A stretch of 64,000 bases of DNA from NCBI RefSeq assembly GCF_029227915.1, contig NC_079885.1:7316001-7380000 (forward strand), given 5' to 3'. Shown in pieces: positions 4,286 through 61,689 of the stretch; within the stretch, counting starts at the first letter, position 1, and each line of letters begins with the position of its first letter. This DNA comes from Hydractinia symbiolongicarpus (taxonomy: Eukaryota; Cnidaria; Hydrozoa; Anthoathecata; Hydractiniidae). Under the pieces are notes generated by a model. It was not told the DNA's origin and made no database searches. It saw nothing but the letters and a program-made list of their open reading frames with translations. The translations under genes and the position numbers were made by a program.

Positions 4286-5233
4286 TCATACACATAAATA
4301 AAGTTTAATCAAATGTTGGATTCCACCAAAATATGCTGTACAAAAATTGGTCGTAACAGGCTCATTGTAAAACTTTGGAAAAGTGCTACCATTGGACCAA
4401 CCAGCCGCTTTTCCCATATTTAAAAGAGACAAACTAATTTGTTTTGATTTTGATGTAGAAGCAGCACAAGATGAGTGCGCCTTAAAAAAATTTGTGTCCA
4501 GCCCCGCAGCTTGCAACATTTTACAGGTCCACCTTGCAATAGTTGCAGATGTTACAGCTTTGTGGGGTGAAACATAACTTATGAAAAGCCTTTTCTCACT
4601 GTTGCTCAGACCATTAGTTCTAGCAAGGTATTCTATAAGGTTTTGCACAACACAGACTTTCCTGTTAGTGGGATGTGCAAGAAATTTCAATGGTTTCTGG
4701 TGATTTGTCGGTCTACTTTGTTTAAGTAAACTGTGAATAAAGATGCAAACCATCTAAAGACAAAACACTGAGTGTCTATGATCGTTGACCACTAAGAACA
4801 CACATCAAGACAACTAACGTTAATAATTGTAAGATAACTCTTCTGGTGGTGGCAAAGAGTCAAAGTACCTCAACACTACATCCACATCAAAAATTATTGT
4901 ATATCGAGGAAGAGTTGGTCGTTCCTTGAAAATGCCACGCAATAAACGTTTGATTATAGGTTGGTTGCCAAACGTTATCGCATGGTCAGGTTTGAGTATA
5001 GATAATAGAGCAGATCTGGCTGTATTCAAAGCAAAGTATTCTAACTTGGTGGAGTAAAATAACTCAGCTAAAAAATCTGCACCTGTAACTGTAGGAGCTG
5101 AGGTTGGATCAAGGTTTTTGGTGCTGCAATAATCAAGCCATTTCTTGATATAAGGTGCATAATGCTTCCTTGTTTTAGAAGTCCATGATTTAATAATCAA
5201 AGACTTTACCTTGTAAGAAACATCAAATTGCAC
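4286..5233 (-). pseudogene. DIRS tyrosine recombinase, inactivated
   Basis: The N-terminal core-binding half (4820-5233) has the typical SWTSKTRKHYAPYIKKWLDY beginning of DIRS recombinases. The catalytic half is at 4286-4753. The two pieces are in the same frame but are separated by a broken stretch in which the box I motif SGQR (about 4770) is readable only in another frame, with stops. In the C-terminal half the box II H-x-x-R reads AHSSCAAS: the catalytic Arg has become Cys, a single C-to-T change at a CpG. The nucleophile region FYN is kept. Tyrosine recombinases of this family cut and rejoin DNA through that Tyr. This copy cannot be active. Confidence 0.85.
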
Positions 5234-5235
5234 AA

Positions 5236-5590
5236 TCAGGTTCGAATCAACACTGCAAGAAAATCCAGGTTTTTGTGTAGTGGATGAAGTAACGACGGTT
5301 GATTTGGAAGAAATAGCTGCTCCCTAGAAGGTAAAATTACATAAGGATTTGTAACAGCAGCCTGGAGAAGTAATGGGGACCATAATTGGTTTGGCCAATT
5401 TGGTACAACAATCAAGCCTTCAATTTTGTCCTGAATGGCTTTTTGCACAACTGCACCTACACAGACGTATGGCGGAGTAAGGCCAATTCATAATGAAAGC
5501 ATATCAATGTGTAGCACAAGGGTCTGGTCTATATGAAACAAATGTATCCAGTTGAGTATTGATTCTACTGGCAAATAAATCAATATCAGG
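5236..5590 (-). pseudogene. DIRS RNase H/recombinase linker region
   Basis: Minus-strand translation gives DIDLFASRINTQLDTFVSYR followed by PDPCATH, a stop, and then a W..QLW.PLL piece in a shifted frame. This PDIDLFAS...PDP pattern is the conserved segment that follows RNase H in DIRS and related elements. It was joined to the RNase H at 6618 before the LINE inserted. At least one stop and one frameshift are present. Confidence 0.75.
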
Positions 5591-5593
5591 GAA

Positions 5594-6617
5594 TTTTTTT
5601 TTTTTTTTGTCTTTTTGTTTTGCCGTTGAAGAATTTACAGTTTTCCGTAAGAATAAAATACAAATGTTAAGCTATTATATCGTATAATCTAAAGATAGGA
5701 TTGCATATGCTGAAAATATTAGCTAGAGAGGTAAAAAAATGGCAGGAGCGAGAAGAAGGCTATAATAGCCTTATCACCAAGCCCCCAACCTATATAAAAG
5801 GTTAGCATTGAAGATGATGAGGAGTTGTGTTATATGTGTCGTATGTTGTAACTGTCGTGTGTTCTAAAATAAATATAGATTGTCAGTAGTCAATAGTTTA
5901 TGTTTTAGTTTATGTTTGAATTCGTTAAGTGATGTAATAGTTTTCATGTCGTTATCAAGAAATGTATTCCACAATTTAGGTCCTCTGCTAGTTATAGAGA
6001 ACTTTGTGATTGTATAATTAATCCTAGGTTGAAAAAAACTGTTAATTGAAAATCTGGATGGATATTTATGTTGTATCTTCTGAAACATATTATTAAATAC
6101 TCTTGGTAACATATTATTTTCAAGCTTAAACATAAAAATAAGAGTTTGATAAATGTTTAGTTGGTATACATTTAGTACACTGATCTTTCCTAATAACTCT
6201 CTGGAGTGAGTGTACCTGTCAACATTTAAAACAATTCTGATTACATGTTTTTGTTTATTTTGTAATTTTGTAGCATTGGTGCTGCACCATGCAATATTTG
6301 CATAATCTTGATAGCAGTGAATGAAAGAAGAATAAACAATTCTGATCTAGAACAAATTTTTCTTTAAATAGGATGCCAATATTCTTTGCGACCTTTTCTT
6401 CTAAAAAATTTATATGTTCTCTCCAAGTAACATTTTCATCAAGAATAACTCCTAAAAATTTCATGGATTGTGCTCTTTTTACACTTAAATTATTAATAAA
6501 AAAATCAGGAAACTTCAATGGCATATCATCTTTTTTATTTTTCCTGTGAAAAAGTGTGTACTTTGTTTTAGAAATATTTAGGGACAGTCTGTTTGCCTTA
6601 AACCATTCTGCCAGCAA
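5594..6617 (-). mobile_element. 5'-truncated LINE inserted in the DIRS element
   Basis: The C-terminal end of a non-LTR reverse transcriptase reads leftward. The stretch 6255-6617 holds AEWFKANRLSLNISKTKY and FLGVILDENVTWREHI, the thumb region of LINE reverse transcriptases. The stretch 5864-6133 holds the closing SRGPKLWN...LNEFKHKLKHKLL segment. The two are in different frames, and a single frameshift near 6330-6350 restores continuity of the pattern. The 3' end is a run of T at 5594-5608 on the plus strand, which is the poly(A) tail of a minus-strand insertion. The 5' end falls directly after the DIRS RNase H sequence, as expected for a truncated target-primed insertion. Only very short shared bases (AATT) flank it, so the target duplication is not proven. 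Confidence 0.85.
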
Positions 6618-7618
6618 TTAAAAGTGTGAAACAATGTGCAGAAAGATCTTTTCACTTAATTTCCATTCTGTTTCAATTTCATGCTTCCTAGATTCTATAT
6701 CAGCTTCTACATTAAGAAGCCCTGGAATGTGTGAGATAGTAAGCCAATGTCTAATGGCCCAATCCCAAATATGCTTGACAGCAATATCACAAGAGATAAA
6801 ACGGCAACTGCCAATGTTGGTTATGCAATGTACAGCTGTTGTATTATCACACAATACTTTGATGTGGGTGTTGAAAACTGAGTCACATAATGACCTCAGT
6901 CAAAAAAAAATAGCTTTCAGCTCTAATACATTTATATGCTGCTCAGACTCAACTTCTGAGAATAAGCCACTGGTTTGTGAGTTAGAACATACTGCACCCC
7001 ACCCAAGCTTAAAAGCATTAGTGGAAATAATCATTGTGGGGTTACCAAATGGGATATGACTGTATGATGAGGTAATATTGTCACACAACCACTGTATACC
7101 TGCTATTGCATTACCAGACAAAGTAGTGTATGAATCAAAATTGCCATAGTTTTTTCTTAATGAGTCTATCTTTATTGGGATGATCTTAAGACAGCAAGAG
7201 GTGGTTTAAGAAGCTACGTAAATTTTTGTGGTCCAGAACACAAACCATTAGGGAGACAAGTGAACTGGTTTAACACACCATCATCATAAAACTTTAAGAA
7301 TTTTTGATGTTCGTCATCTATATGAACAGAGTAATAAGCATCTTTGATATCAATTTTTGCCATAAAGCAGTTTTTTGTAACTAATTTCAAAACTGAAGAA
7401 ATTGTGTCCATTTTAAAATGTATATATGGCATATAACTATTACGATTTTTTAAATTCAAAATGAGTCTGAATGAACCACCAGGCTTTGGAGTGAGAAAAA
7501 TAGGAGATATAAACTCTCCAGCTACATGATAACTTTGTATGATTACTCCTTTTTTAAGTAACCTGGTGATCTCTGATTTGATAAATTTGTTTTTATCAGC
7601 AGAGAAAGAACAGTTCAT
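6618..7618 (-). pseudogene. DIRS reverse transcriptase and RNase H, deleted
   Basis: The N-terminal half of RT (7214-7618) is clear: LTPKPGGSFRLILNLKNRN, AKIDIKDAYYSVHI with the first catalytic Asp, and CLPNGLCSGPQKFT. The palm part that should carry the second Asp pair (xxDD) is absent: sequence jumps from this point to a piece read from about 7190 down to 6900 that is already at the start of RNase H (AFKLGWGAVCSN...EQHINVLELKA). RNase H ends at 6618-6854 (CDNTTAV, then HIPGLLNVEADIESR). An internal deletion therefore removed the RT active site, and the reading frame changes several times. Confidence 0.85.
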
Positions 7619-7662
7619 GCTTTCAGCATTACCAGGTTATAGTGGTTCCTTAAATTCTATTT

Positions 7663-11597: not shown

Positions 11598-14500
11598 CTA
11601 AAGATTCCAACGACCGAAATTCATTCCGGGAATCCTGCTGCAAACGACACGTGCTGTGCTGGATGTGGCAGCCTTTAAGGATTTTCTTTGAATTGATACG
11701 ATTCCGTGCAATGTATTGCATAACACTTCAGAAAAAGTCATCTTACGGATTTCAGCTCTTTGAGCTGTTGTGAAAACGCCGCGTGCTTCGTAGAAAAATC
11801 GATCACCGTCTCGTAGTCTCTCAAACTGTTTCCTTAAGATGCATTGAAAGGTTGGTCCCAGCATTTTACGGCCCGAATGGTGCTCCGCTATTCCGGCGGC
11901 AAAGATATCTATGTCGTTTGGACTTTTATATAATCTCTTGAATCCGGTAATCACAGATCGTGGCATTGAATGCCTTAAATCAGAGAATCCTTGTAACTTT
12001 TTCAATCCACACACTTTTCGCCACGCCCCATAGGTTCTTAGACCATGATCACGTCCTCTTTGTATGTTTAAAGCTGTCAAATCTTCATGTCGTATTTCTC
12101 CAACAGGAACGAATAAACGTCGAGCAATTCCGAAGGCAAATTTTGTATCAACTACTTGTGATTGATTTGCAAGCAAGCCAAATGCAGTTGGTTCTATACC
12201 GCGTTGACGAAGGCTGGTTGTGTTGAAAAATGAAGCTTGAAGGGAGATATCTGGAAATTGCTGGTCAAAATTTTTATTAAGCTGTGACCATGCGTTTGGA
12301 ACAAGACTGTGACCAAACCTAAAAGCTGCAGCTGAAAAGACATTAAGCAAACTTGTATCAACGTGGCTTTTGTATCCTGGATACCCAGATAAACCAACCA
12401 ATTCAGGCAAAAATTCTTTATAGACAATCCTCTGGTAAATGGCAATATTGATTTTTCTTGCTGTTTCAAATAGTAGATCTTCCGTCCAAGCTTTTCCTCC
12501 TCTTCTCCTCACTCTTCGAAGCCTGCGTGCTATGAAGTTGTGATTGCGTACCCAAATGGTATGCATGGCAGACAGGGCTATGTTTTCATCCCCTCTTTCA
12601 TCACCAACAAGGGAGCATCCCGCAGCATTGTCACATGATGTGTCGGATGCGGGTCTGGCGATGGGGAGTAGACCCGACCGAGTGACTTTCAGCTCACCTC
12701 TGCCTTTAAAGAATAATATAAGTCTTGTGAAAAAATATAATCCTTCAAGTTAAAGTATTTTCAACCTTAACAGTTTATATTTCAAAACTTATTGCAGGAA
12801 GTTAAAATGTCCTTAAGTTATTCTCTTTCTATTGTCAAAAGTAGGAAAAAAAGCGTGAGGGGTGAAAGGAAAAACGAAAAACGATAAAAGAAAAACGAAA
12901 AACAAAACAAAAAAAAAACAAAAAAGAAAAAAGTAAAAACCAAAAACTAAAAAGAAAAAAGTAAGAAGCCTACCATCTAATGTTCTTAGACTTTGAGCTT
13001 TTTTAAAACTATTGCTGTAAACTTGTGAGAGATCAAGATACGATGAAAGTACATTAATTTGTTGTCTTGTTTTTCTGCGACCGCTTTGGCAAACCGGAAT
13101 AGATCGTGCAAAACTAGAGCAGTTTGCTCCATTGTGTTGAAATCGGATAGGAAAGCAAGGATATCTGAACGCTGAGTTTGAAGCACAACTACAAAAAAGG
13201 GTTAATATCAGTATACACAAACTGTAGCAACAACGACAACAATTACGGTACCAACGACAAAAACAACGAAGGTCCATGGTTAGGGTGAACTTAACCGGCG
13301 TAGCTTGAACTTAAACGGGCTAGCTTGAACCATAGTCGCTTAAACAGCTCATGTAATTATCAAACTCGAAATGTGGTAGGTAGGTGAAATCTTACCCGGC
13401 AGAAACATTGCACGAAGGATGTGGAGTTGATCCTACATCGTGATCTATGAATTGACCAAGAGACATAAACATTGCTGACAGTCCCTTCGATGCTCTTTCC
13501 TTGTTTTCCATTTGCACTCTAAATACGGCAGCAGATACCTCATGCGGTGTAGGTACGACAGGTAGGGTTCTAGGGAATCCACGAGGTGTGTCTAATTTTC
13601 TTTTGTCGACATAATCAGCAGCTGCAAAAAAGAATGTTGTGATGACAATTAAAGTTGTCCTGGCGAGAACTTTACGAACCTATAATAATATACCAAACGC
13701 AAGTTAAAAGTAGCAAAATCGTTTTGGAGAGCAATCATATACTGTCTACCCGCAAAATATGCTCAAGTGATGACATGTTTTGTTAACAATTTATTTTACA
13801 ATACTCCCCCCCAAAAAAAATAAAAATAAAAAAATCAATAAAATCAATAAGATATATTAACCTAAATGTAGCGGAGTTAAAGATATCTATAAGCGTTTAA
13901 AGACCCTGAAACCTTAAATAATAACTCAAGGAACACAGAAAAATAGAATGTCGTTGACTTAGACAAAAAAGTGTGTTAACGAAAGTCAGTGTATGTCTTT
14001 GATAAGCTTTTATTTCTGAGTAAACTAATAAATAGATCCCTTAAAATAATTTTAAAACATATTTAGGTTTAATTAAAGGTTAGGGTTCAGCAGAAATAAG
14101 TCTTTGCGCCAATCGCAACTAACGCATATATAATAGTAATTTTTTATTCATTTTGTTATTAGCTGTATAACATCAAAGCCATGCTAAAAAACATGAAATA
14201 TTGATGGACAAAATTGCAAATGCTTCGTTATGCTACATAAGCACGAAATATCCTCGTTCATTTTTATAACAAGTTAAGAACAGGTCGTTATGGAAATATC
14301 GTTTATAACGTAACACTTACCAAGAAGTCTACCCAAAGGAGTGTTTGCTGCTCCCATTGTTCTTCTCTTTAAATTGTTGCATGTTCCATCAATCGTTCGA
14401 AAGGATGTAATATTTGTAAATCCAGTACAACTGGTACATTTTATAACTGGATTGCAGTTGTTTAATGTGTTCACTGTAAGGGAAATGGAGATTGGAAAAA

Positions 14501-23529: not shown

Positions 23530-23940
23530 AGGGCCTGTCGCTTAAAACTGTTAGAACAAGTTTATCAAATTGGAAAAAAGGGCTGGGAAATAGGTAGGGT
23601 CTACCTGCCGGTTCTCCATTGAAAAGCTTATGACACGTTTTCTCACACCCCTGCTTCCCTGTTTCTCTCTTTTTTAAATCCGTTAAAGCAAGTCCATCAA
23701 AACGGAAAAAAGGACATGGAATTAGGTATGGTCTGTCGGCTTGTTTTCCATTAGGCAGCTTATGACACGTTCTCTCACACTCCTACTTTTTTGTTTTCCT
23801 CTTGCTTAAAGCTGTTAAAGCAAGCTCATCAAATCGGAAAAGGACTGGGAAATAGGTACGGTCTATCTGCCTGTTCTCAATTAAACAGCTTATGACGAAT
23901 TCTCTTACACCACTGCTTCCTTGTTTTCGTCTCTGTTTGT
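23530..23940. repeat. Tandem repeat, about 131-base unit, three copies
   Basis: Each unit contains GTTAAAGCAAG, then ATCAAA..GGAAAA, then a GG..ATGG/TGGGAAATAGGTA segment, then CAGCTTATGAC, then CTCACAC and a CTTCCTTGTTT segment. The GCTTATGAC word occurs at 23626, 23758 and 23888, so the spacing is 132 and 130. The units differ by substitutions, so the array is old. Confidence 0.85.
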
Positions 23941-34520: not shown

Positions 34521-36038
34521 TTAATCTTCTTCGTCCTCCACAACACATTTCACCAACGGTGTATATCGTGACAGTTTCAAACAAAGTTTCTCCAATTTTA
34601 AAAACGCAAACCAGTTCCAACGTATACATGCGAAATACAAAGGAAAACTTATTGACATGAAGGCTAAACATATACCAGCACTAATCGGTGCTTTTGTGGC
34701 TGAAGCAATAACTAACGCAACCGAAAGTACTACCATAAAGACGGGGGTTGAGATCCACGTTTTATACGTTCGTTCTTTACTAGGATATTTATATCTAAAA
34801 GCTATCACTGTAGATATCGTTACACCATATCCGATCCACAATGATAAATTAAAATAAAACATTGCTGTTTCTATATTCCTTGAAAACAACGTCACCAAAC
34901 AACCAATAAATCCAATAAATAAAATCGCAGGTATAGGAGCTGATGACTTCTTGTGGATCATTGCAAACACCGATGGAAAGTGTCCCTCTCTCGCACTTGA
35001 CAAAATAGATCTCGGCAAGAAGTAGAATAATCCATTTAAATTGCCAATGCAGCATATTGAAACCAATATAGGTATAACGTAAGTCATGGCTTTGCCTACA
35101 ACTTTCTCACCAAAGGTACTAATGACAACAGGAGAAATTGCCATCTCTTCCTTAGTTAATGCTGTCAGACAAGCTATATTCACCAACACATAGCATAAAG
35201 TTACCAAAGGCATCACAGTAAATGACAGTAATGGTATAGTCCTACTTGGTTTCTCGACTTCTTCAACAAAACTTGCAATGAACAACCACCCATCATATGC
35301 AAACAAGGCGTTGAACATAGCTAATCCAAGCGAGCCTACATCTTTTAGACCTTCCAGTGTATTATTGAACATAACATTTGGGCGAAGATTTGGTGCATCA
35401 CCCGTGTGGATAACTTGGTATACACCTAAACCGGCGATAAAGGCAATAACAGAGAACTGAGCAGCACTCAGAAACATTTGAACTTTTCCTGATGCTTTCA
35501 GACCGAAACAAGCAACAATAATGGTGAACAGTAAGGCAACTAGTGCAACAACTTTTGAGGTCCAAATATACGTAGTTGATGTGTGATCTGAGAAAAACGG
35601 TGCGCATGCGTACAAACCACATGTTAACGATAAGATACTTATATCAAATGGTGCAGTAATAAGATTGGTAGACCACAAGATCACAAACCCCATCACATCA
35701 CCATAACATTCAAATACGAAGATATAAGATGAGCCAGTCTTTTTTATGATTGACGCAAGCTCGCTGTAACAAAGCGAACCCAGAAGTGCACAGCCTCCTG
35801 CCAACATCCAAATCGCTATAGCGGTAAACATATTTGGAGATCTTTGCGCTACAAGTGCTGGCGAAACGAACATGCCTGATCCAATTAAGCTTCCCAGAAT
35901 CAATGCAAATGCATGTTTGAACTTTAACGAGCGTTGTAGAACTCGTGTTTCTGGAAGAACAAGTTCATCGGTTGTGTAATTGGGGACATCTTTTTTGCCG
36001 GATAGTAACAGCTCTGTTTCTTCCGTATGGATACTCAT
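34521..36038 (-). CDS. SLC7-like amino-acid transporter, single exon
   Basis: The protein has 505 residues from the chosen start at 36038 (MSIHTEETELL). An upstream in-frame ATG at 36068 adds ten residues, but a good 3' splice site (TTTCAG, at 36060-36061) lies between the two, so the upstream part may be intron. The first helix carries LILGSLIGSGMFVSP, the substrate-binding unwound segment typical of APC-superfamily light chains (LAT, xCT and b0,+AT types). About twelve hydrophobic segments follow, with the length usual for the family. Members exchange or import neutral or cationic amino acids at the plasma membrane, often with a glycoprotein heavy chain. LYACAPFF near TM3-4 may supply the linking Cys. 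Substrate cannot be read from sequence. No defects are seen. Confidence 0.9.
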   Translation of the reverse strand: MSIHTEETELLLSGKKDVPNYTTDELVLPETRVLQRSLKFKHAFALILGSLIGSGMFVSPALVAQRSPNMFTAIAIWMLAGGCALLGSLCYSELASIIKKTGSSYIFVFECYGDVMGFVILWSTNLITAPFDISILSLTCGLYACAPFFSDHTSTTYIWTSKVVALVALLFTIIVACFGLKASGKVQMFLSAAQFSVIAFIAGLGVYQVIHTGDAPNLRPNVMFNNTLEGLKDVGSLGLAMFNALFAYDGWLFIASFVEEVEKPSRTIPLLSFTVMPLVTLCYVLVNIACLTALTKEEMAISPVVISTFGEKVVGKAMTYVIPILVSICCIGNLNGLFYFLPRSILSSAREGHFPSVFAMIHKKSSAPIPAILFIGFIGCLVTLFSRNIETAMFYFNLSLWIGYGVTISTVIAFRYKYPSKERTYKTWISTPVFMVVLSVALVIASATKAPISAGICLAFMSISFPLYFACIRWNWFAFLKLEKLCLKLSRYTPLVKCVVEDEED

Positions 36039-36068
36039 TTTAACGTATATTTTTGACACCTGAAACAT

Positions 36069-39000
36069 AACATGTATTTATTAAAACAGTTTATTTAGTA
36101 GCAATGCAGATGTTGCGTATGTAAATTGTAGTATAAGACATTTCATGCTATTTCAGACGGCAAGATAATGCCGATATCAGGTACAAAATCAAAACACTGC
36201 AGAAAATAAACAAAAAAACAATGCAAAGACAATGTAACGTCTTCTTTCCCCAACATTCGGCATTTAGATATCCAGTTCTAGATATCCAGATCTAGACAAC
36301 AGACGTATGTTTACGGAACTGTAAGCCTTTTTTCGGTTGTTTTTGCATCACCTTCAGCGTATTCACGTACCGAATATGAGCAGAAAATCTGAAGAAGATA
36401 TGTGTTCAGTTTTCATGTTCATGCTCAATATGCGGTTCTCACATCTCTTCAATGCAAGGTTAAGGTAAGTTTCTATACGACTGCATTTTTCGCTTGAGCA
36501 GGTAAAACTCGGGAGCACTTGAGTTCGAACTTAATGGAAATCAATTTCCCGCTTGAGAGAAAAAGATGTTCAGAATAAAATGGCTGCCAGAAAAAACGTT
36601 TTGCTACGAAATTTAAAAATAATAACAACTTTGCTTTTATGGCAGCATATTAAAAGAATACGTAATAGGAAACAAAAACTAAAAAAGATGAGAAAACGTT
36701 TTCAGGAAAGAAGGGACAGTTATTTATTTACTGTTATTTTATGAATTTAAATACCAATGTTCTCCAACAAGTAGTTGATTTTTGTGTTAGTCAGGAAAAT
36801 TTAAAAAGAATCTATGAATCCATAACTTTTATTCATAAATTCAATGCTAACAGGTCTCTTTGCTCTGCTTACACTAAACACTTATTTCTGGTGTTGTTTT
36901 TTTATAAGTAAAAAAGTGCAGAAGAAATTTTGTTTTGTTTACATTTCCCTGAATTTTATTGCTTAAAACGCTCAAAAGAAAAAAAACGCGCTAAAAAGTC
37001 GAATAAGTTCAACTTTTTGAGAGAAACTCGCATCTTTTTACGTAAGTCAGCGGTCATTCTACTTCATTGTCCAAGGTTGTGCAAAAGCTCCCTAGCTCTT
37101 TCCACTCAGAGCGGATAGTGCAGTCGTATGAATACCTTCATTTAACTCTTTAACTATATAAATGCCCAAATACTTAAAAAGTTGTGTTCAATTGGGCCCA
37201 TTTTTTTATGTACACCCATCCCAACATTACCAAAATTCGTGGGGAATGTCAGACGATTGATTTTGTTTATAATGCTGATTCTGAAAGACAAATTTTATAA
37301 TGCGGAAAATGGCTGTTTAATTGTTGGATATTTTTCTTCACTTGCTTTTATTTATACGTCATATTAGTTTTAAGAGTTCTACAACTGCTGTCCCTTTTTT
37401 TAAGAGCAGAGTGTATACGGCTTGGTTATTCGAAGTTTATAAAAGTTTTCAGCAAGTCTCACTTGTTCAGGAGAAGTTGAAGAACATCCCCGCTAGTGCT
37501 ACAGAGTATTAAAAACAGAAGAAAAATTGCCTATTGGCGATTTGGCATACCAATTCTTTACCTGGATAATGACCAGGACTGGCGCAGCGCAAGTCCAAAG
37601 AGAGAATTTGCCTTAAACGTTGTTAGAGAGTGAAAAGTATAGAATTTTTTTTACTCTCCTTTTGGCGGTGCTGTTATTTTTATTGACAAAGAATATGAGT
37701 GGGTGTTTTTGAGTATTCTTAGGCACATCATAACTCGAGTTGTTTTTTTGTTTAAGGAACATTTTTACCTTTAAACAGGGATGGCGGCTAGGTACAATTC
37801 TCCATTTTTATGCTAAATTTACTAACAAGGGCATAAAATTACGTGAACATGATTAACTCTCTTACCGCCGTAAGTGGCTAAAAACATTTTATAAGTTTTA
37901 TAAGAAAAAAATTATGCACGATTTAACTCAACCCGAAAATATTCCATAAAAGTTGGGAAATAAATCGCCTTTCACCACAACACGAATAGGGTTTAAACAA
38001 ACAAAAAAACAAAACAAAAAGAAAGCAAACAGACAAATAAACAAATAAACAAACAAATGAAAACTCTATTAACAACAACATACTGTCCTTGAAGAATCGT
38101 TCCTCAAAAGACGAAAAAACAAGTGTAAACCTAACTTGAATTTACATTGTATTTATCTTACCACGTTGCCGCCCCTTTTTTCGTAAAACCTTCTTAAAGA
38201 GCAATTATAACGCGAACAAGCATTTCTTATTTCACTTTTCTCACGGAACTCAGTTAATGTCGTCGCTCTGACAATACTTTTATCCGTTTGTTTATATAGT
38301 AAGGATAAAGAATCGCCTGCTTATTCTGTAGTTCCCAGGAGGTAGGTATTTCTATACAAGATCAGCTGCCATATGGTCAGAAAGTACATTGCTTTAATTT
38401 GAAAGGAATCAATCTATTGTTCCAAAAACACGTACAATAATTTCATAAAAAAATAGGTACTAAAAAATGGTAATTAAGAAATAAAAGTAACACATTATAA
38501 TTCAAACATGTCATAATACTTTCGTCAGCTCCATTGTGAGTAATGATTCAGAAATTAAAAATGTATATTGAATATTAATTCGACGGTTAGTTTCAACCCC
38601 TTCCATCCCTGCACTAAAAATAAAATTAAAAACGCTTATTGTTCTATTATCAATTCCTGAAGTCATAACCACTGGGGCATACACCACTTAACTTTATTTG
38701 GTCCGGGGTATTTCGAACATATTATGGAAGAAAAAAATGGCAGCCATAAATTTTTGCTTAAGTCAGCATGTTTTCTGTGACGTCATCGAAAGCTTAAAAT
38801 TTGTCTAATATACCACTATCTGCTTGAAATTCAATTACTAACCTTCTAAAAGCGAATTTTAACATCCAGATAAAAGTTTCTGACAACTAAATAAAATTTA
38901 TTAAACATATTTCCTGGTTTGTACATAGATCGCATGAATAGGGAGCCGAAAAATGCCTGAAATTCCGACTTTTTTCTGTTCTTTTGGTAAAATTCCAAAA

Positions 39001-42648: not shown

Positions 42649-45600
42649 TCAATGCGATTTATATTTCATGACAGCCATCTCCAACAGAAACACGATGCAC
42701 GATAACACAAACCAAAACATCAAAACCAAAAACAATCCTCCAAAGTAATTAATACTAAACTCAACAACATTGTCATTTTTTCCGTATAACACGTCAGTAC
42801 ACTTGTCGGGAAACCATTTCTCATTAATTTTTTTCAATATTCCATCGTCGTTATACCTTTGGATGGTTTCCGAGATAATATTAGTCAAATGTGAATTTTT
42901 TTGTACACCGAGGCTAAAACCAGATTCAGGGATGATTTCACCTGCAACTTTTAACCTGCAATCCTCGCTCATGTAATGCAAAGAACCATATATTGAATGA
43001 AAAATAGCGTCCAGTTCCCTATAAAAAGAGTACATGTCAATATTGAGGAAAATTATTCAAACAAAATCTAACGTAGTTGCTCGATAGACTGTTTATGCAA
43101 ATCCCGTTGTTACCATTCGGATTAAGTTTTTGGCTATTCTCACAAAGGTTTGCTTTCAAAGCGCTATATGAATTTTTAAAGAAAAAAAGCCGTAGAATTA
43201 AATCCAATAGCGAAAGTTTGAAAACAGTTTTAAAAAAATGTGAACGCCATACCAAAAAGTTTTCTTGTCGCAAAATACGTACTTAAATTTCGGTTTAGCT
43301 TTTAAATGTTTTAGAGTATCTATATTGTAATACTCGTTATCTGTAATTATAGTAACTACCCCCGTCCAGGTAAATTTCGTTACTTCATGGGAACACGTGG
43401 TAAGGGTGCACAAATTAACGATGCCAGAACGGGCGTTCCAACGTGGAATTTTCTACGAGCTAAGGATAAGTTTTCTTTTACTTCTTAAAAGTGATATAAA
43501 TCCACGGGAATTTACCCGCCGATGCCCGCAGGTACCATTTTAGATTACAGACGCACAAACGGACGGATAGATGGATGGACAAGCAGGCAGAGACGTATGG
43601 CAAGCATTATAATATAGATGTGCTTTAAAATATACGTACCCTGATCTAAGCTTGGCAAATGCTGCTTCGGAATCAATGTAGTTATAGTGTTTCATAAAGG
43701 CTCCGATCCGACTCCATGTGGGATCTGTACTATCAACGAACATTTGTGAATATAATGAGTTCTTTAACGTTCCAAATTTGAACTTGTGTGATGGATTAGT
43801 AACCTTTAAAAAACAAAGAATTATAAAATGGCTAGATAAAGCTGCTAAGGAAAAACTTTTTTGGAAGTAGTTATTGTCAAATTTAAGTTCGGTTATGGTT
43901 GCTGGTTCAAGAATTGTTCTACATTGGTTATTTACAAGTAAAGGTTGTTTTGGGGAGTTCTAAGCACTTTAGTTACATTACAAACAATTTCTCGCACTGG
44001 TCTTTAAAATAGTTTTAAAACAGAACAGGAAAAAGGTTTCGGTGCCAGAAATTATACTGTCATAACCCAAATCCTGCTCTTTTGTATTAGAAATTATTCG
44101 GTCCTTTCCCTGCCAATTTAACTATATAAAACGCGTTTTAAACAAAAATATGAACAGCAAATATTTATTTTAAGATTTTGTCTTAGTGAGCGAAAGATGT
44201 TAAGTAGGTGTCTGCAGTATTTTTTACCTAGGTGTAACGAATAATCTGCCTGAAAAACAAAAACCTTGTTGGAGTAAGAAAGTACACTTATTTCAAGATT
44301 ATTAAAGGTTAAGGTTAGCAGAGTTTTATGCATTTTTTGTTATTGGTAAAATAGAGAATTGATTTTTTTCGGTACAAAATAGACCAAAAAACCCTCTGTC
44401 GCGGTTTATTACATCCTACTCAAATTTCGTAGGAAATACAAATTGAAGATAAGCAATTCTTGATGATACGTACCTTTTTGTCGTGTATCCCTGTAATAGG
44501 TAGCTTACTTTCATAAGTGACTTTATTTGCAGTTAAAACTGCTGTGTAAGCGGACATTATAATCATCATTGATATTGCCAACAAAATCGAAAGAATTCTA
44601 GTCGTCAAACGTTTAGGATTTGCACCTGCAATGTCTTTTTGGAATACCAATCCAGCTAGATAGGTTATGCTTTCAGACCACGGATACACGGTTTTTTTAA
44701 GAGTGTAACCTTTCCTTTCGATGGCAACCAAAACAAAGCTAGCCAAAAATGCAACAACGAATGTGATTACCCATAATAAATTCGATAAAGGAGCAAAAGA
44801 GTCAAAGTTAAAGAAAGCAATGCTGCTGCGCTTCTCCATAACAATGAACGCAACACCCCCCGTTAAGTATGGGTGTGAGAAATCAATATATTCCCCTCTT
44901 TTTGTGTTCATGGATAAGCTTGCTAAAATTAAATCAGCTTTTCCTCTAACAATATCACCCACCATGCCTACCCATGACCCATTCACAATTTGACCATAGG
45001 TAGAATCTTCCACGATGTATATATCGGGTATCAAACTCAAATCATCTTCCAAGTGCTGAATAAGGTCAATGCAATATCCATAACAACAGTATGGCACACG
45101 TGCTGTTGTATTGTTCCGTGATTCGTTTCGCCAACATAATTTGCCAGAACTGCATTTCATCTCATCAAAATCTATGATATCATGTGAGTCCTCATGGAGG
45201 AGTGTAAAAGGACCATCAATCACTGTCACTACCCTGATATTACGCCGAAGCAGTTCATCTATTCTTAGGAATTGACTTTTCATCTTTTTTCCTTCAGAGT
45301 TAAACTTTATTATGTCTTCATGATAAGTGGCGATAATTTCTAATTTGTTGTCTATTCGCTTGTATATCCATCGCCCACCAATATCCATCAACATACTGTG
45401 ACTGGAATTATATCGAAGGGTAGAATAATTTCTAAAAAAGTTGAATACCCATCTTGTATAAAATTGCTGACCAAAAAAAGTAAAATCGAATAGAATTTAA
45501 ACTTATTTTTGTTGCCTTAACAGGCTTAAGATGTAATAATTTAGTATGTTTCTAAGCAGAACTTGTAAGAAAATAGCTAACTACATTAGTCAAAAATAGT

Positions 45601-48600
45601 TTAAAGTCTCTTTTACCAGAAACCTTGATTTAAAACCAAGGTACGTGTTTGTATAGAATAAATTTTGGATATGAAATATTTGTCAGGTACTTTTCTGTCA
45701 TTTTTAATTATGTTTATGTGTCCAATATGATATCCATGATAATTTAAGGTGTTGCTTTTGTCCTCAATGCTCATAAAGTTTCCCTCCACCCATAAGTTCG
45801 ACTTTCAGGAAGTCCCTAAAGTTTCAAATTAACAGCTCACATTTGTAGTCCGTCTAAGTGGATTTTTCCACGGGTTTGAACAACTAGTCTTACACATTAA
45901 TACGGTGCTTTCTTGTGTTTGTAACACTCAAAGCAAATCTGCTGTTGTTTTATAAGAAATAGGCGGTCGCATTTGGTAAGCGATTATATTTACTCTGTGT
46001 TTTGTTTGTATGTATAAATAGTTTCAAAGTTTTATCAACAAATGTCACAGGTAAATAATTTCTATTGTTCCCTCGATAAATCGTTGTCTATTTCGTTTAG
46101 AACGTTTTAATTATTCGCGCCTTTTTAACAAAAAATATAAAAACAATTTTATGATGAGAAGAAAAATAAATTTAAAAAAAATTCTGTAAGTGGTTTATTT
46201 CTTTATTAAGCTCTTTCATTTATGGTTTTTGGTTGTAATTGAAAAAATGTTTTGTAGTGAAAATTTTTTAATACTGTCTCTTAGTGGATTATTTTAACTC
46301 AACAGACCTTTGTCATATGTACTTTTTCTTGAGTATTAAAAAAGTAACAAAAATTATGTTAACGTGAAATTTTGCGAATAGGGGTCAAATTTGTAAAAAT
46401 AAGTTTCGCGAGAATTTATTACCGCGAAAATTTTCTTCTTTATGAAAGTTTATGCTTCTTTCTATAACGATCTGAGACAGATGGCGACTGTGGAATAATT
46501 TAATATGTTTTAATCTACGGCAGAGTGTATGGTAAAATCATTGTTGCTCCAAAAGTTCTCTACCGTACCTGGCCTAAGGGACTCGTCCACAAAAGCAACG
46601 TGTTACCAACTACAATCAGGGACAAAGTTTTTTTCGCAAAGCTCTTCTTTGCAAAATAACCTTGTTCCCGATTATACCAACAAATATATGAATATTTGTG
46701 GACAAAAATGTGTACATAATAAGAGTAAAGCTAAGGCGCCACGAGGAACATTTTCATGCGCGTGCTATGCAACATGTCCCATAGCATGCGCATGAAAATG
46801 TTTCTCGTGGCGCCACATCTTATTTGCTGCAAGATTATTTCGAAAATCGAAGTTAAAAAATCATGCTCAAAGGGTATACCGTATCCTTAAGTTTTTTATT
46901 GAGTTCATGTGTGATTAAAATATGGCAGGAATAAACAGAGAAGTTATTTTAGCTTTACTTTTGTTGGACGAAGAAGAAGAGGAAGATCGTGAAGAACCAC
47001 CAAGAAATTGCTGGGTGCAACCGTGGCTTGGGAATAGAGAGTGTCTTGGCGCTTTTCATACAATCTTCAACGAAATAAAAAACGATGAGAAGAAATGTAG
47101 AGGGTATATACGTATGAATAACGCTCAATTCGAATACCTAGTCGGTCTTCTTTCTGAGGATTTGCAGAAACAAGATACAAATATGAGGAATTCTATCACA
47201 CCAGCTGAGCTCGTTTGCGTGGCCCTACGTTACTTAGCGACTGGTGAGACTTTCAGGTCTTTAGAATTTCAATTCAGAGTGTCAAGAAAAAGAATTTCAG
47301 CAGCTGTTATGGAGGTATCTGAAGCTATCATAAAGAGGTTGGGTCCAACCTTCCTTTCAACTCCGAAAACACAGGGGGAATGGCTAGATATCTCCAGAAA
47401 GTTCAATGAGCGTTGGAACTTCCCAAATGGATTAGGTGCTCTCGATGGGAAGCATATCGTCATTCAGCAGCCCCCAAATTCAGGGTCTCATTACCGAAAC
47501 TATAAAGGGACAGACAGTGTAGTGCTCATGGCTCTTGTCGGGCCAGAATATGAGTTTCTTTATGTGGAAGTTGGAGCGAACGGTAGAAATTCTGATGGAG
47601 GTATATGGGACCAATGTAATTTAAAGAAGGCGCTAGACAGTGGATCGCTAAATTTACCAGAGGTTTGCAATTTACCAGGTCGAAACAACAAAGTGCCGTA
47701 TGTGATAACAGGAGATGATGCGTTTCCTCTTAAGAATTACCTGATGAAGCCTTATCCACAAAAAAATCTGACAGTAAACAAACGCATCTTCAATTATCGA
47801 CTGTCACGAAAGAGAAGAATTTCTGAAAACGGATTTGGGATATTGGCAAATCGGTGGCGCATTTTTCGTCGACCTATAAACTTAGAACCAGAAAAGGTTT
47901 CTACCATCACAATGGCAACAGTGGCATTGCATAACTGGCAGAGGAGCAAAAGTTCTGTGGGCAAAATTGAGCTACCAATTGGTCTTGTCGACCGAGAGAA
48001 TGAGCGTGGTGAAATTATCGAAGGTGCTTGGAGAGAAGATACTCCTACTGGCACATGGTTTTCACTGTCCAATGACATTTACGGCAATCGATCTAGTAAT
48101 CAAGCCAAAGCAATAAGAGACGAGTTCACGGAGTATTTCGTAATGGAAGGTGCTGTACGCTGGCAGTGGCATTGCGCTAGAGTTGACATTTAATTTTATT
48201 TTTTGCGAGGATAAATAAAAAATGATAAGATTTACTGAACGTTTAATATATTTTTCTGATTTATTTTACTCCAGAAAATGTCTGCCAACCATAACGTAAC
48301 GTATCAAAACGTATCGTTCGAACAGGATGAATTTGCGGGTGAATACGGCTGATTTTGAGAAGGTAGAGGTGGCGATTGCAGCATACCAGTATATGTATTT
48401 GCCATGGGATATGATGGGGTGTATGGAGTAAACGTTGAAGCTGCGAACATACGAGCATGATGGTTGGTAGGCATAGATTGGTGTTGTTTCTGCTCTTCAT
48501 ACTCGAAAAAAATATCCATGATTTTTTTCTTCAACCTTGGCCAATCTTTTAGTTAGCACTGGACCAAACTGTCGGCCACTGTACTTCCAAAAATTTGGGC

Positions 48601-51600
48601 ACGTTTTTCGACAGCAGATTGCGCTTCGCATCCATATGTAGAAGCTTGTTGCGGCCGGATTTCATGGTGATCAGCCCTTTGTGTGATGGAAGTTGTCAAC
48701 GCTTTCCACAGTTCGGCTTTGGCACACTGCTCCTCCGTCATCTTCTTCTCCCGTCGTTTTTTAGGAGCAGGGGTACGTGGTTCATCCTCGTTCATTGTAT
48801 CGACGGTCTCATCCATATCGCAAGTAATCTCAACGAAATCCATTTGATTATAATGGTCCCAGGTAGAAAAATATGCTTCGTTTACACCTGCACCAGAGGA
48901 TCTTGATCCAATCTCCCTATTGCGCTCACTTCTATACTTTGTCAATGCGTTATGCCATGACGTTTTGAGCTCGTTTACGGTATACTTCCCATCAAAACGC
49001 TCACTCAGTTTGACCATCAGAGCTTCGCGCAACACTCTGTCTCTATAATCTTGTAGAGTGTGGTTCCAAAGCGCGGGATTTTCACGATAAAAATCAATCA
49101 ATTCTTCCAACTCGTCGGACGAAAGTTGCGCTTTTTTCTTTTCTTTTGTTAGATCAGTTACGATAAACTCCATTTGTTCATAAAACTTCCACTTTTTCGA
49201 TGGAACTTCGCTTCCAGCATTACGTTTAACTTCACGGAGCATCGATGAACGAAGAGAATGGAATGCTTTTTCTAGAAAATCACAGCTATACGCCCCCTCA
49301 AATTCAGTGACAAGGTCTATTTTCGCAGCTTCTTTTTTGTCTTTATTTTTGTAATATATATTCCCACTGTCCCATAACGTTGGGTTCGCTTTATAAAAGT
49401 TTATTAAAGTAACTTTCTCCTCGTCTGATAGTTTTTTCTTTTCATCCGCCATTTTCGCTATTTTCTCACTAGCTACTCTTCACTTGCAGTTCAACTTCTC
49501 AAGAAAAAAACTTGTTTATATCTTTCTGTGATTTGATTGGTCAATAAAATAATGCCTCAAATAATTTTGTAAAATATTTGTTGCAGACACGTGCAACATT
49601 TGCTCCACAACAAATTTTTCAGCACATTTTGTCCCCGGAGCACGGGAGCAAAATAGATTCAGATCTATTTTGTCCCCGAAGTTGTGGAGCAAAATGTTTG
49701 CTCCATGCAACATTTTTTTGCTGCATTGCAGTGAAAAATAGGCATGGGACACGAGTAATTTTTTTTATGCGCGTGCTATGCAGCAATGTTGCATAGCACG
49801 CGCATGAAAATGTTCCTCGTGGCGCCTTAGCTTAACAAACAAATACGATGATACTGCAGTATTAGATTGATAAAAAAAATTTTTTTGGCTACGTTACGGG
49901 TTAAATAACAACATCAGATCAGCTCTATTGTATTTAAACAAATAGGTATTTAATCTGTATCTATGGTTACTGTTAAACTTTGTATATATTATATTTGTAT
50001 ATATAAGACAAAGAAAGAAGTTTCAAGAAATTGGCAGCTCTTTTTTTAAAAAAAAGAAAAAATACCCACCCGTCCAAATTTCTGCAGTGTAATAAGTCAT
50101 TCCGTTTTGCAGCGTAGTTATTTTCTTTGTTTCTATTTGAAATGAAAATAACATGTCCTGGTAACTTACCCAAAAGGTAATCAATTTCCACATAGTCTAC
50201 AAGCCACATGTATTTAGAAGCAAGAAAACCTACTTCTGCGGCAGCTTTTAAGACTAAGAAAGTACAATCAACAGAGCAGATCAGCGATACGACACGAATG
50301 TCAGTGGAGAGGAGGTACAAGAGTTGCGTTTTCACAAATGCAATGCCAAAACGTTCAGGTAGATAGAGGGTATGCGACCATGTTGGAGAGGGAATGTTGT
50401 TGATCGACTCTGCATGATTCTTATGCTTTTTGTAAGTGATAAGCAGTGAGTGGTGTCGTTTGAACTGATTCATCAAAGCTCCTTGGATTTTAAATGTTTG
50501 TTTCTTATCAGTGCGATGCTAAAGAAAATTTGATAGCAATAATATTAATAATAATAACTCAAGCATATGGATCTTCGTCTCGAAACGCGTAAATATATCT
50601 ATGAAATAGCGTATGCCTAAGTAATATAACAAATTAGAATAAAAACATTGCAAAAAAAAAACAAGGATTCGAATTAGATCATGGACGTGTAAATTGAACC
50701 AACAGGAATTGGTTATACGTCGTGATAACGGTAATTACAAACAGGAAAAAGAATATATATTAAATAGTATGCTTAAGTATGCTTAAGTATACGAAAGAAA
50801 TATTCACTTATAATAACAGATTGGTATGGCTAAAAAATAAGATCATAAGCGTACCGAGGAAGAGTTATATCACATTATTTAAAGCCCACGTTATAATAAA
50901 ATATTGCTTTTTAAAAAGCAGAAATGTAATTTAAGGTGAAATACTTTCGGATAAAAGTAGTTTTAAAAGCAGTTTAGATGTAACACACGCATTATCAGTC
51001 TCAGAATGTGTTAGGTTACTTAGCCTCGCAGCCTTAAACGATGCTAATTATTTCTATCGTCAGCGCGACGTCTTTCCCCAAATTAAAAAAGTTAGAAAGT
51101 TCTTGAGGGAAAGAGGTCAATTTTATTCCTTAGCGGGCATAAAGAATGTATAAAGTAGGCGTGGTAGCTCATAGCAAAGGTCTTCGTGGACAAGAATTGA
51201 ACATGTCAGGGTTATACCTATAAGAAAGATAATATTTGTATTTACTTCGTGTTCTATCTTTTTCGATTTTATTTCTAATGTGTGTGTGATTTGTCGTAAG
51301 CTTGATAAAATACTTTTGGCAGGTACACTTGACAACTTTTAATAGTCAATAATTTTTAATAGTTCAATTTGTGCTTATGCAGCATGGTTTATTTTACGCA
51401 TAATCCAGAATTCTATCATTCAATTTTTCAACTTTAACTACCCTGGGTGTCGCTCGTTTTTTAGTTGATCATAAACTCCAGTGACAATTTAATCACATGT
51501 TACACAGCCTTGTAACAGCTTGTTTTTGTATTGTCACGTGGTATTGAAAAAGCAAAGTGCTTATGTAGAATATACTATGAATATCGAATATTTGTAAGAT

Positions 51601-52372
51601 ACTTTTCTGTCGTTTTCAGTTACTTTTGGTGTCAATACGAATTACAAGATATGATATAAGACATTGTTTTGATCCTCATTGGTCAAAAATTTCGTGTAAG
51701 TCACTAAAAATCAACAGTTCGTTTCGTCTATTTTTTAGCTTCTTTGCTTGTTTATAGAAAATTGTTGTTAAAAAAAAAGTGTAAAATAATTCTAAAAAAA
51801 TTAATTCACAACTTTTTCCTGATATCCTTTTATTTCTTTATACTTATAATGCTTAAAAATAATAATAGATTTTAAAAACCTTACTCCAGCTATAGAAAAA
51901 ATAAATAAATAAAAATTGATAATGTAATCCCCGGAAATTGTAAGTGCAGTTTGCAACAGGCAAATTCCCGTCGCACTTTCCAGGGGATAATGACTAGTAA
52001 ATAAAACTAACCTATAGTAAAATTGCAAGGAACAGAAAAATCCGGCTTACCGGCAAAATAGTTTCCGTCCGTATCATGGACACTAACAACCTTTTCGTAT
52101 TGGGCTGCAATCTTTGATTCAGACTTTGCGAGGACAATGTTTGATTCCTACTTACAGAATCACAATAACATTTAGCAATTTCAAACAGTGATCCCGAATG
52201 GATGGAACATATATCTAGCATGTTTTCTGCTGTATAAAAGTCACGGCTTGAAGTTGAAAAGCTACCATGTGAAGCATATGTTTGTTGACTCCAGTTCTTC
52301 AGTAAAATGACTATAATAAACTGGCTCAACGCGAAATCATCACAGCTGAGCATAACTCCTTTTTTATCAAGT
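42649..52372 (-). CDS. Divergent ionotropic glutamate receptor (5' end missing)
   Basis: Exons read on the minus strand: 52372-52051, 50518-50070, 45431-44474, 43803-43640 and 43018-42649. All joins are GT/AG with matching phase and give 753 residues. The first two exons are amino-terminal-domain sequence (RVVSLICSV, then KYMWLVDY). The third holds the S1 ligand lobe, with the agonist carboxylate Arg at model residue 435 (TKRGEYIDFS), M1 (about 474-494), the pore loop with Gln521 at the Q/R/N position, and M3. The last two hold S2 (FKFGTL to WF) and M4 (about 722-746). S2 is closest to NMDA-type receptors. Two oddities: the acidic residue of the IWDS motif is replaced (IFHS), and the gating motif SYTANLAAF reads SAYTAVLTAN. 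It would be a cation channel in the plasma membrane. A start exon upstream of 52372 was not found, and the amino-terminal domain looks short. A Harbinger element sits in the third exon's upstream intron. Confidence 0.88.
45540..45860 (+). repeat. Dispersed repeat, copy A
   Basis: It shares ATATTTGT..G.TACTTTTCTGTC, CAATGCTCATAAA and a TCCC..CCATAAG segment with copies at 51590-51735 and 56560-56860, all in the same orientation. It is followed at once by a CCACGGG-hairpin repeat at 45855-45896. Confidence 0.65.
46726..46728. repeat. TAA target-site duplication, left
   Basis: It matches TAA at 49833-49835. A 3-base TWA duplication is the signature of PIF/Harbinger insertion. Confidence 0.9.
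46735..46814. repeat. Subterminal hairpin at the Harbinger left end
   Basis: The arms 46735-46769 and 46780-46814 are inverse complements over 35 bases with two mismatches, around a 10-base loop. The right end has a related fold: ATGCGCGTGCTATGCA, a 7-base loop, then its inverse, at about 49767-49805. Confidence 0.9.
46922..48193 (+). CDS. Harbinger DDE transposase (intact)
   Basis: The protein has 423 residues in one uninterrupted frame, about the usual length for the family. The N-terminal part carries an acidic run (EEEEEDREE, residues 17-25) and a helix-turn-helix-like region at about 93-135 (TPAELVCVALRYLATGETFR). The DDE nuclease follows: Asp175 in GALDGKH, Asp265 in ITGDDAFPL and Glu302 in SENGFGILANRW, all three present. 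NSDGGIWD at 223-230 is also typical. The enzyme cuts the element ends and inserts them at TWA. The start at 46922 follows 90-odd bases of left-end hairpin sequence and agrees with the length of relatives. AATAAA at 48214-48219 is a likely poly(A) signal. It is antisense to the host receptor gene. Confidence 0.95.
   Translation: MAGINREVILALLLLDEEEEEDREEPPRNCWVQPWLGNRECLGAFHTIFNEIKNDEKKCRGYIRMNNAQFEYLVGLLSEDLQKQDTNMRNSITPAELVCVALRYLATGETFRSLEFQFRVSRKRISAAVMEVSEAIIKRLGPTFLSTPKTQGEWLDISRKFNERWNFPNGLGALDGKHIVIQQPPNSGSHYRNYKGTDSVVLMALVGPEYEFLYVEVGANGRNSDGGIWDQCNLKKALDSGSLNLPEVCNLPGRNNKVPYVITGDDAFPLKNYLMKPYPQKNLTVNKRIFNYRLSRKRRISENGFGILANRWRIFRRPINLEPEKVSTITMATVALHNWQRSKSSVGKIELPIGLVDRENERGEIIEGAWREDTPTGTWFSLSNDIYGNRSSNQAKAIRDEFTEYFVMEGAVRWQWHCARVDI
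48304..49452 (-). pseudogene. Harbinger MADF-domain partner, one in-frame stop
   Basis: From the ATG at 49452 the frame gives 299 residues and then TAA at 48553-48555. The same frame continues open to 48304, reading LKDWPRLKKKIMDIFFEYEE and a Pro/Ser/Gln-rich tail. Two MADF domains are visible, at about 13-97 (ValThrLeuIle-NFYKANPTLWD) and 117-207 (LIDFYRENPALWN). A Lys/Arg-rich stretch PKKRREKK at about 229-236 may be a nuclear signal. MADF is a Myb/SANT-like DNA-binding fold; in Harbinger elements a Myb/SANT-type partner helps bring the transposase to the nucleus and to DNA. The WPxLKKKI segment after the stop looks like a conserved closing helix, so the TAA probably truncates the protein, though both MADF domains would survive. 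A TTTATT at 48260-48265 (plus) is a plausible poly(A) signal. Confidence 0.85.
49560..49765. repeat. Subterminal inverted words near the Harbinger right end
   Basis: Several inverted copies of TTTTGTCCCC/GGGGACAAAA-like, GAGCAAAAT and ATAGATTCAGATCTAT words lie between the partner-gene start and the right end. Such subterminal repeats are candidate binding sites for the transposase or its partner. Confidence 0.6.
49833..49835. repeat. TAA target-site duplication, right
   Basis: Matches 46726-46728. Confidence 0.9.
51590..51735 (+). repeat. Dispersed repeat, copy B
   Basis: A shorter copy of the family at 45540-45860 and 56560-56860, with GATACTTTTCTGTCGTTTTC and a TTCGTGTAAGTCACTAAA segment shared with copy C. 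It lies in an intron of the receptor gene. Confidence 0.65.
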
Positions 52373-60409: not shown

Positions 60410-61689
60410 TTATTTGATTAAATCAGAATTTATAGCATTTACCGTTTTAGTGAGTTTACTATGGTGGTTTTAAACAATGTCTAATAGCTTGTAACGTCAA
60501 AAACGGGTAGAGTCAAAAGTTTTTGAAAAAATGCCACTCACAAAAAAGTTATTAGTCACAAAGTTCCTTAACAATTGAGCAAATAATTCAGAAGATATTA
60601 AAATTTGAATTTGCAGCTGGCACCAGGGATGGGTATACTAAATAGGATTAAACATCTATATTAACTTTTCTCAAGTCATAATTTTGTACAGAATGAATGT
60701 AATGTGACAATAAATTTATAAAAACGTATTTTTTCAGCACCTGATTTAAAAAACAACACTGAGAAGTGTTTCAATGGCAAAGGTGAATATTACAATGGTA
60801 CAGTATCTATCACATCAACTGGAAAGAGTTGTTTACCTTGGGACGTCAACCCGTTTTTAAATTCAAATGTCTACAATAACTTACACAAAAACTTCTGTCA
60901 AAATCCACAAAGTTATGGTAAGATGCCATGGTTATGTCGATCAGGAACAAAATTGGGTTTATTGTAACATCGAAACTTGCAAAGAGCTTTGGTGCAGAAA
61001 GAACAAAGGTTATAATCCAATTTTTTCAACATTTACACTTAATTTTGTGTAATATTTCGTCAGTAGGGTTTCACCACAAGGTTTTAATTGGTACTCGTCA
61101 ACTCAGACAAAAGCTCATTCAAAAAATCTTCTTCTGCAGAACAAAATTAAAAAAATGGATTCACAAATTGCATCATACAATAGTACAACAGATGTAAATT
61201 AAAAAAAAAATTCCAAAAAAAAAGGAATAACAATTCACAAAATATATTGCTGCAGGACAAAATTAAATAAAAATAGTCTTCAAATTCCATCATATTTAAA
61301 TTATAAACTAAAAAAAAGTTCGATAAAGAATATAAATTCACCAAAACCCGATTTTTTCAAGAAATAAAAAAAAACAGTCATATGCTACAATCGTGGACAA
61401 AAACATTGAGACTAAGGCTGTGTTTTACTCATTATCTAAATATGGACAAAACGGTCAAACAGCCAATGCTCTGCAGCCGACAGGCTGCCAAGTCGCTACT
61501 TTGGCACAAAGGTAGGCCACGCAGACAGGGTTTTAAAAAGTTGCTAGTCATATTCTTTAACACGCCCGCACACCGAAATAATTTACGTTGGAACCCCGTC
61601 AGTAACAATTAGCACATTTTAAGAATTTCGTAATTACCAAAAGAATTTCGTAATTACGCAATACTTGTGGTGGTGAACTTGGAAATTTG

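Follow-up and report, generated by a model that had tools for sequence, protein, structure and literature searches.

The DNA analyzed here is a stretch of 64,000 nucleotides from Hydractinia symbiolongicarpus (contig NC_079885.1, positions 7,316,001 to 7,380,000 of the forward strand; hereafter called the window), which carries an element of the PIF/Harbinger superfamily at window positions 46729-49832. We are confident, though short of certain, of the following overall account: a cut-and-paste transposon of a very recently amplified Harbinger family has entered the second intron of an NMDA-3A-like receptor gene at a TAA, where the window copy most likely lies as a silent, non-autonomous passenger. 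The element measures 3,104 bp. Its boundaries are base-exact and agree in every coordinate with the span given by an initial annotation that had been made from the sequence alone. This annotation had described the terminal repeats as almost identical; in fact the left end AGCTAAGGCGCC (46729-46775, plus strand) and the right end GGCGCCTTAGCT (49786-49832, minus strand) are inverted repeats that start with an A and are fully identical across 47 nt. The inverted-repeat search returned slightly longer arms of 51 nt (46725-46775 and 49786-49836) with 98% identity, whereby the sole mismatch falls in the flanking TAA, which is a direct repeat, and thus the element's own ends are identical. The TAA target-site duplications were found on both sides as annotated (46726-46728 and 49833-49835).

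The target duplication of PIF/Harbinger elements has the sequence TWA. In agreement with this, the window copy is flanked by TAA and its sister copies by TTA or TAA. The terminal inverted repeats of PIF/Harbinger elements are usually shorter than 60 bp with A or G as the first base (PMC4482050), and the target-site duplication measures 3 bp (PMC9710019). Together with a DDE_Tnp_4 transposase and a MADF gene, these features bear out the assignment to Harbinger.

Genes of the Harbinger element

The transposase gene (46922-48193, plus strand, antisense to the receptor) is an open frame of 423 amino acids (aa) that matches PF13359 (DDE_Tnp_4) with an E value of 1e-30. The predicted open frame and DDE triad are thus present: D175, D225, D265, and E302 are invariant in 13 aligned proteins, which are a chosen subset of 120 listed matches. 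Within the transposase half, the window copy shows no difference at all from the column majority of the aligned copies. A sequence search of the PDB with the transposase gave no match at E ≤ 1, and among the proteins searched, the foreign transposases that come closest are 70-77% identical, with a Clytia fragment (P0071) at 71%. In the protein search, the H. symbiolongicarpus gene LOC130613611 (P0001) matched at 100% (rounded). We considered that LOC130613611 might be the window copy itself, which was rejected, as a residue stretch of P0001 occurs, among 21 full-length copies, only in L022. It can be assigned to the element copy at C11:25.79 Mb, on the same contig as the window, and genes of this kind are host genes in annotation name only. 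Compared with a second Harbinger family of the same genome, the transposase has 61% aa identity over 397 residues. The three codon positions are 67, 78, and 38% identical, with a nonsynonymous divergence (dN) of 0.33 and a saturated synonymous divergence (dS); judged by these substitutions, the transposase is constrained between the two families.

The second gene (48553-49452, minus strand) encodes a MADF partner protein (PF10545, E 5.5e-32) with two MADF stretches. The frame ends after 299 of 382 aa in the window copy, with both MADF stretches upstream of the stop, whereas 382 aa are encoded in most sister copies. The remainder of the frame (48304-48552, minus strand) is translated in the sister copies, and the C-terminal segment is also retained in the relatives P0142 and P0143 (54-56% identity). 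By eye this segment is BESS-like, but the Pfam search of the intact protein gave no BESS match. The protein as such fits MADF far better than Myb_DNA-bind_4. A second gene for a DNA-binding protein of the Myb/SANT or MADF type, as found in the superfamily, is hence intact in sister copies and shortened in the window copy. The genome search with the MADF protein revealed at least 24 places that are covered over residues 1-382 at 99-100%, five of them, including the window, with an internal stop, as well as three short matches of 85-95% that fall within L044 and L050, both of them deletion derivatives.

Copy number and age of the family

The genome was searched with the left end (40 of 108 candidates scored) and with the transposase, where 1,156 candidates arose and 99 rows were given a score, and the resulting counts are lower bounds. 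The left-end search yielded at least 82 matches and 30 listed loci at ≥98%, 21 of which (window included) match the left end at 100% over 102 bases; two of the 30, L029 and L030, are lone 94-bp tips next to nested copies. Since the left end recurs at 30 loci at this identity, chance can be excluded as the source of the observed structure. That the element might be without other copies with similar ends, which the initial annotation had considered, is not what was found. The transposase search gave 33 rows at 98-100%, which correspond to 32 places because one copy is split by a frameshift; the other 66 scored rows lie at 37-65%.

A set of 21 full-length copies (3,094 to 3,113 bp) was compared. 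This set leaves out the plus-strand partner of L037, its tandem duplicate L038, the deletion derivatives L043, L044, L046, and L050, and the pair L026/L027. The pairwise difference averages 0.30% (0.064-0.771), and the copies carry a mean of 5.05 substitutions each (0.162%) relative to the column majority. The window copy departs from this majority by one substitution and one 9-bp deletion (at 49585/49586, in the stretch that separates the MADF start from the right end), the latter being private to it and missing from the 15 other copies with which it was aligned. Six columns carry shared changes and suggest three sub-families of little depth, with the window copy in the largest group. Matching 3-bp duplications of TTA or TAA were found at 18 of the 21 copies, the three others being L037, which is nested, L047, whose right end is doubled, and L028, which has lost a tip. 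With mutation rates in a general, not species-specific range of 1e-9 to 1e-8 per site per year, 0.162% would correspond, very roughly, to an age of at most 0.2 to 1.6 million years. The family was amplified very recently, in line with the earlier description of the element as young. It is likely that the family is still polymorphic between colonies, because there are about thirty near-identical places and the three sub-families are shallow. The possibility of a truncated or old relic was ruled out by the intact ends, target site, and transposase frame.

The private changes in the coding regions were counted with the six shared columns excluded. In the transposase, there are 23 nonsynonymous and 10 synonymous changes and 1 stop, compared to 22.7, 7.5, and 2.4 expected; in the MADF gene, there are 14 nonsynonymous and 4 synonymous changes and 4 stops, compared to 19.6, 6.7, and 1.8 expected. 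These numbers lie near the neutral expectation, as they would for copies that are not individually selected.

Palindromic ends, rearranged copies, and origin of the family

Both tips of the window copy are palindromic. The left tip (46729-46822, 94 nt) folds back on itself as a single strand, forming a stem of 35 pairs (z -12.76). The right tip (49762-49810) consists of the arms 49762-49785 and 49787-49810, which are 92% complementary, and the fold of the right end (49762-49832) has a shorter stem than the left one (z -5.61). The same arrangement is kept in the second family, whose transposase is about 60% identical, and in older short derivatives. A member of the second family, L066, measures 2,981 bp, is flanked by TTA on either side, and has palindromic ends on both sides in different letters; in L065, of which the left tip was read, this tip is palindromic too. 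Between the outer and the inner arm, 37 of 43 positions match in L065 (left) and 34 of 39 in L066 (right), compared to 38 of 45 and 22 of 27 at the left and right ends of the window copy. The second family also resembles the window family in an oppositely oriented MADF gene and the TTA duplication (L066), but differs in the end sequence, and the MADF frame of L066 is broken. Nine older relatives of the left tip were fetched, with 75-90% identity depending on the stretch. Six of them (L056, L057, L060, L061, L062, L064) have the left tip together with the right-end sequence, and no transposase match was found within the stretches fetched for these six. They include non-autonomous relatives of about 750 bp with the same palindromic tip (L062 1026-1807, L064 1044-1795, L056 1066-1815); L056 has TTA on both sides, and L062 and L064 are 94.7% identical.

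In 10 left tips, 81.8% of the cells pair compared to 81.0% in shuffles, and no covariation beyond shuffles was detected; three pairs change on both sides, a number that was reached by 113 of 500 shuffles. As pairing exceeds the slid controls while covariation does not exceed the shuffles, the data speak for two conserved putative binding sites rather than for a hairpin selected as such.

Several copies are rearranged. All four deletion derivatives (L043, L044, L046, L050) have matching TTA or TAA outside. L046 (2890-6583) is a tandem dimer of one deletion derivative with matching target duplications outside, and L047 (2840-6116), which is full-length, carries an additional right end of 165 bp within its outer TAA and likewise has matching duplications outside; both composites look as if they had moved as units. 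L037 comprises two copies head to head that have a left palindrome in common, and a lone 94-bp tip lies on the far side. This fits a scenario in which one copy inserted into the TTA of the tip of another copy and the palindrome then flipped. The nested arrangement repeats 12.4 kb further on (L037/L038, G000:C10:3742000-3764399), suggesting a tandem segmental duplication. In addition, the left ends of L026 and L027 (C7:2537553 and 2539409) are 1,856 bp apart and have the same 20-base left flank, so that element and flank were duplicated together. It is conceivable, and we put it forward as a tentative and rather doubtful idea, that there is a hydrozoan Harbinger lineage in which each end, being palindromic, presents the partner protein with two binding sites in inverted orientation, or with a hairpin. 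Such ends might be shared, flipped, or doubled, which would give rise to nests of head-to-head copies, dimers in tandem, and copies with a doubled right end, all of which seemingly moved as units.

The family could have arrived by recent horizontal transfer followed by a burst instead of belonging to a long-resident Hydractinia lineage. The lack of scored transposase matches in the range from 65% to 98% identity and the three sub-families with almost no depth would fit an arrival of this kind, and horizontal transfer is on record for Harbinger (PMC8437027). However, the same genome harbors older non-autonomous relatives that share the palindromic left tip, with both ends present in six of the nine fetched, and the closest foreign transposases among the proteins searched provide no near-identical donor. 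Taken together, we regard a recent transfer as unlikely. Harbinger-Snek of sea kraits is alike in its recent expansion, near-identical copies, and solo-gene derivatives, but is described in that paper as having reached 8-12% of the genome following a horizontal transfer, compared to about thirty places in Hydractinia, where the older relatives suggest residence.

Insect PIF elements with a MADF second gene are alike in the combination of DDE_Tnp_4 and MADF, the short terminal repeats, and the 3-bp duplications (PMC9710019). The Hydractinia element differs from these in its palindromic ends, a repeat of 47 nt instead of about 15 bp, two MADF stretches in one protein, and its hydrozoan host. Teleost Harbingers likewise have two genes, but the second one is Myb-like (PMC9179366), whereas the Hydractinia partner is MADF. 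The superfamily is already known in H. symbiolongicarpus, with 5,311 Tourist/Harbinger elements that represent 0.28% of the genome (PMC10411563), and the present element is a further member. In the literature covered, which was partial and did not comprise Repbase, neither this family nor Harbinger elements with palindromic ends were found to be described. Hydractinia is a stem-cell model, and a young two-gene cut-and-paste family would allow movement, excision in stem cells, and silencing to be studied in place.

Mobility of the window copy and the receptor gene

In teleost Harbingers, the partner protein binds the ends and takes the transposase to the nucleus (PMC9179366); for the superfamily, the division of labor given in PMC9179366 and PMC9710019 is end binding and nuclear delivery by the partner, and cutting and pasting by the transposase. 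By analogy, the MADF protein would bind the palindromic ends and carry the DDE transposase into the nucleus and to the ends, the pair would excise the element and paste it at TWA sites, and the copy number would rise via repair or replication timing. Both frames (transposase 423 aa, MADF ≥380 aa) are intact in 14 of the 21 copies, including L028, whose tip is damaged. Four copies have a broken MADF frame, each with a different remaining length (window 299 aa, L042 179, L023 295, L025 322), and four have a broken transposase frame (L035, L036, L041, L023). The earlier suggestion that the window copy could be active is weakened: its transposase frame and ends are complete, but its MADF frame is cut short. 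As the MADF protein is truncated, the window copy is likely unable to move alone, provided that the partner is needed as in other Harbingers; it is probably a non-autonomous member and would depend on MADF protein from sister copies, which may mobilize it in trans.

Some points weigh against this account. In the window copy, 299 residues with both MADF stretches remain, and it is from the truncation that we infer a loss of function. The four MADF stops compared to 1.8 expected could mean a relaxed need for MADF, or be due to chance. Furthermore, joined-flank queries, which represent empty sites, gave no spanning match for any of 16 copies (0/16) when searched against the fetched loci; the other five of the 21 copies were left out because their stretches are in pieces or the flank is short. 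It could also be that the window copy is fully autonomous and active, with the 299-aa MADF protein being sufficient. In this case, the transposase frame, which is identical to the majority, the perfect ends, and the position of both MADF stretches ahead of the stop would be expected. However, the lost C-terminal segment is retained in P0142 and P0143 as well as in 17 of the 21 family copies, and the 9-bp deletion sits upstream of the MADF start, so that we consider full autonomy quite improbable.

As had been annotated, the element lies in an intron of a glutamate receptor gene. The host gene (minus strand) is annotated as NMDA 3A-like receptor isoform X2 (P0121, 737 aa), which supersedes a PDB search with receptor exon 2 (best E 0.77, NMDA 1). 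Coding exon 1 (52051-52353) encodes residues 1-101 of P0121 at 100% and is followed by exon 2 (50070-50518, start approximate), exon 3 (44471-45401; ligand-binding S1 and pore, PF10613 and PF00060), exon 4 (43579-43806, a tblastn range with approximate ends), and exon 5 (42652-43017; S2 and the last membrane segment). The element occupies 3,104 bp of the 4,668-bp intron 2 (45402-50069, GT..AG; numbered by the coding exons of isoform X2). In the isoform X2 protein, exon 2 is joined to exon 3 across the element, and no element sequence is present at the junction in this one annotated isoform. For the receptor, the element most likely is a silent intron passenger, and caution is warranted in that no change of receptor function is known from it. 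The MADF gene is transcribed from the minus strand like the receptor, as previously noted, which makes a hybrid transcript geometrically possible. Nevertheless, co-option by the host, be it exonization into the receptor or domestication, is very improbable: isoform X2 skips the element (mild evidence, for that isoform only), the MADF frame is truncated, the ends and target duplications are intact, unlike in domesticated genes, and domestication was rejected on the neutral private changes over the 21 copies. H. symbiolongicarpus has two more NMDA 3A-like receptors (P0122 and P0123), located on a contig of equal length and 39-42% identical to the query, which suggests a local receptor family.

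Elsewhere in the window, an animal haem peroxidase exon (11601-12749, minus strand; PF03098, E 1.3e-104), an amino-acid permease in a single long open frame (34524-36077, minus strand; PF13520, E 4.6e-45), and a Kringle domain exon (60722-60964, plus strand; PF00051, E 1.6e-10) were found. Fragments of a tyrosine recombinase and a reverse transcriptase, recognized by eye at 4823-7636 (minus strand), probably constitute a broken DIRS-kind retroelement. Finally, a 132-nt repeat is present at 23542-23935 in three tandem copies that are 64-75% alike.

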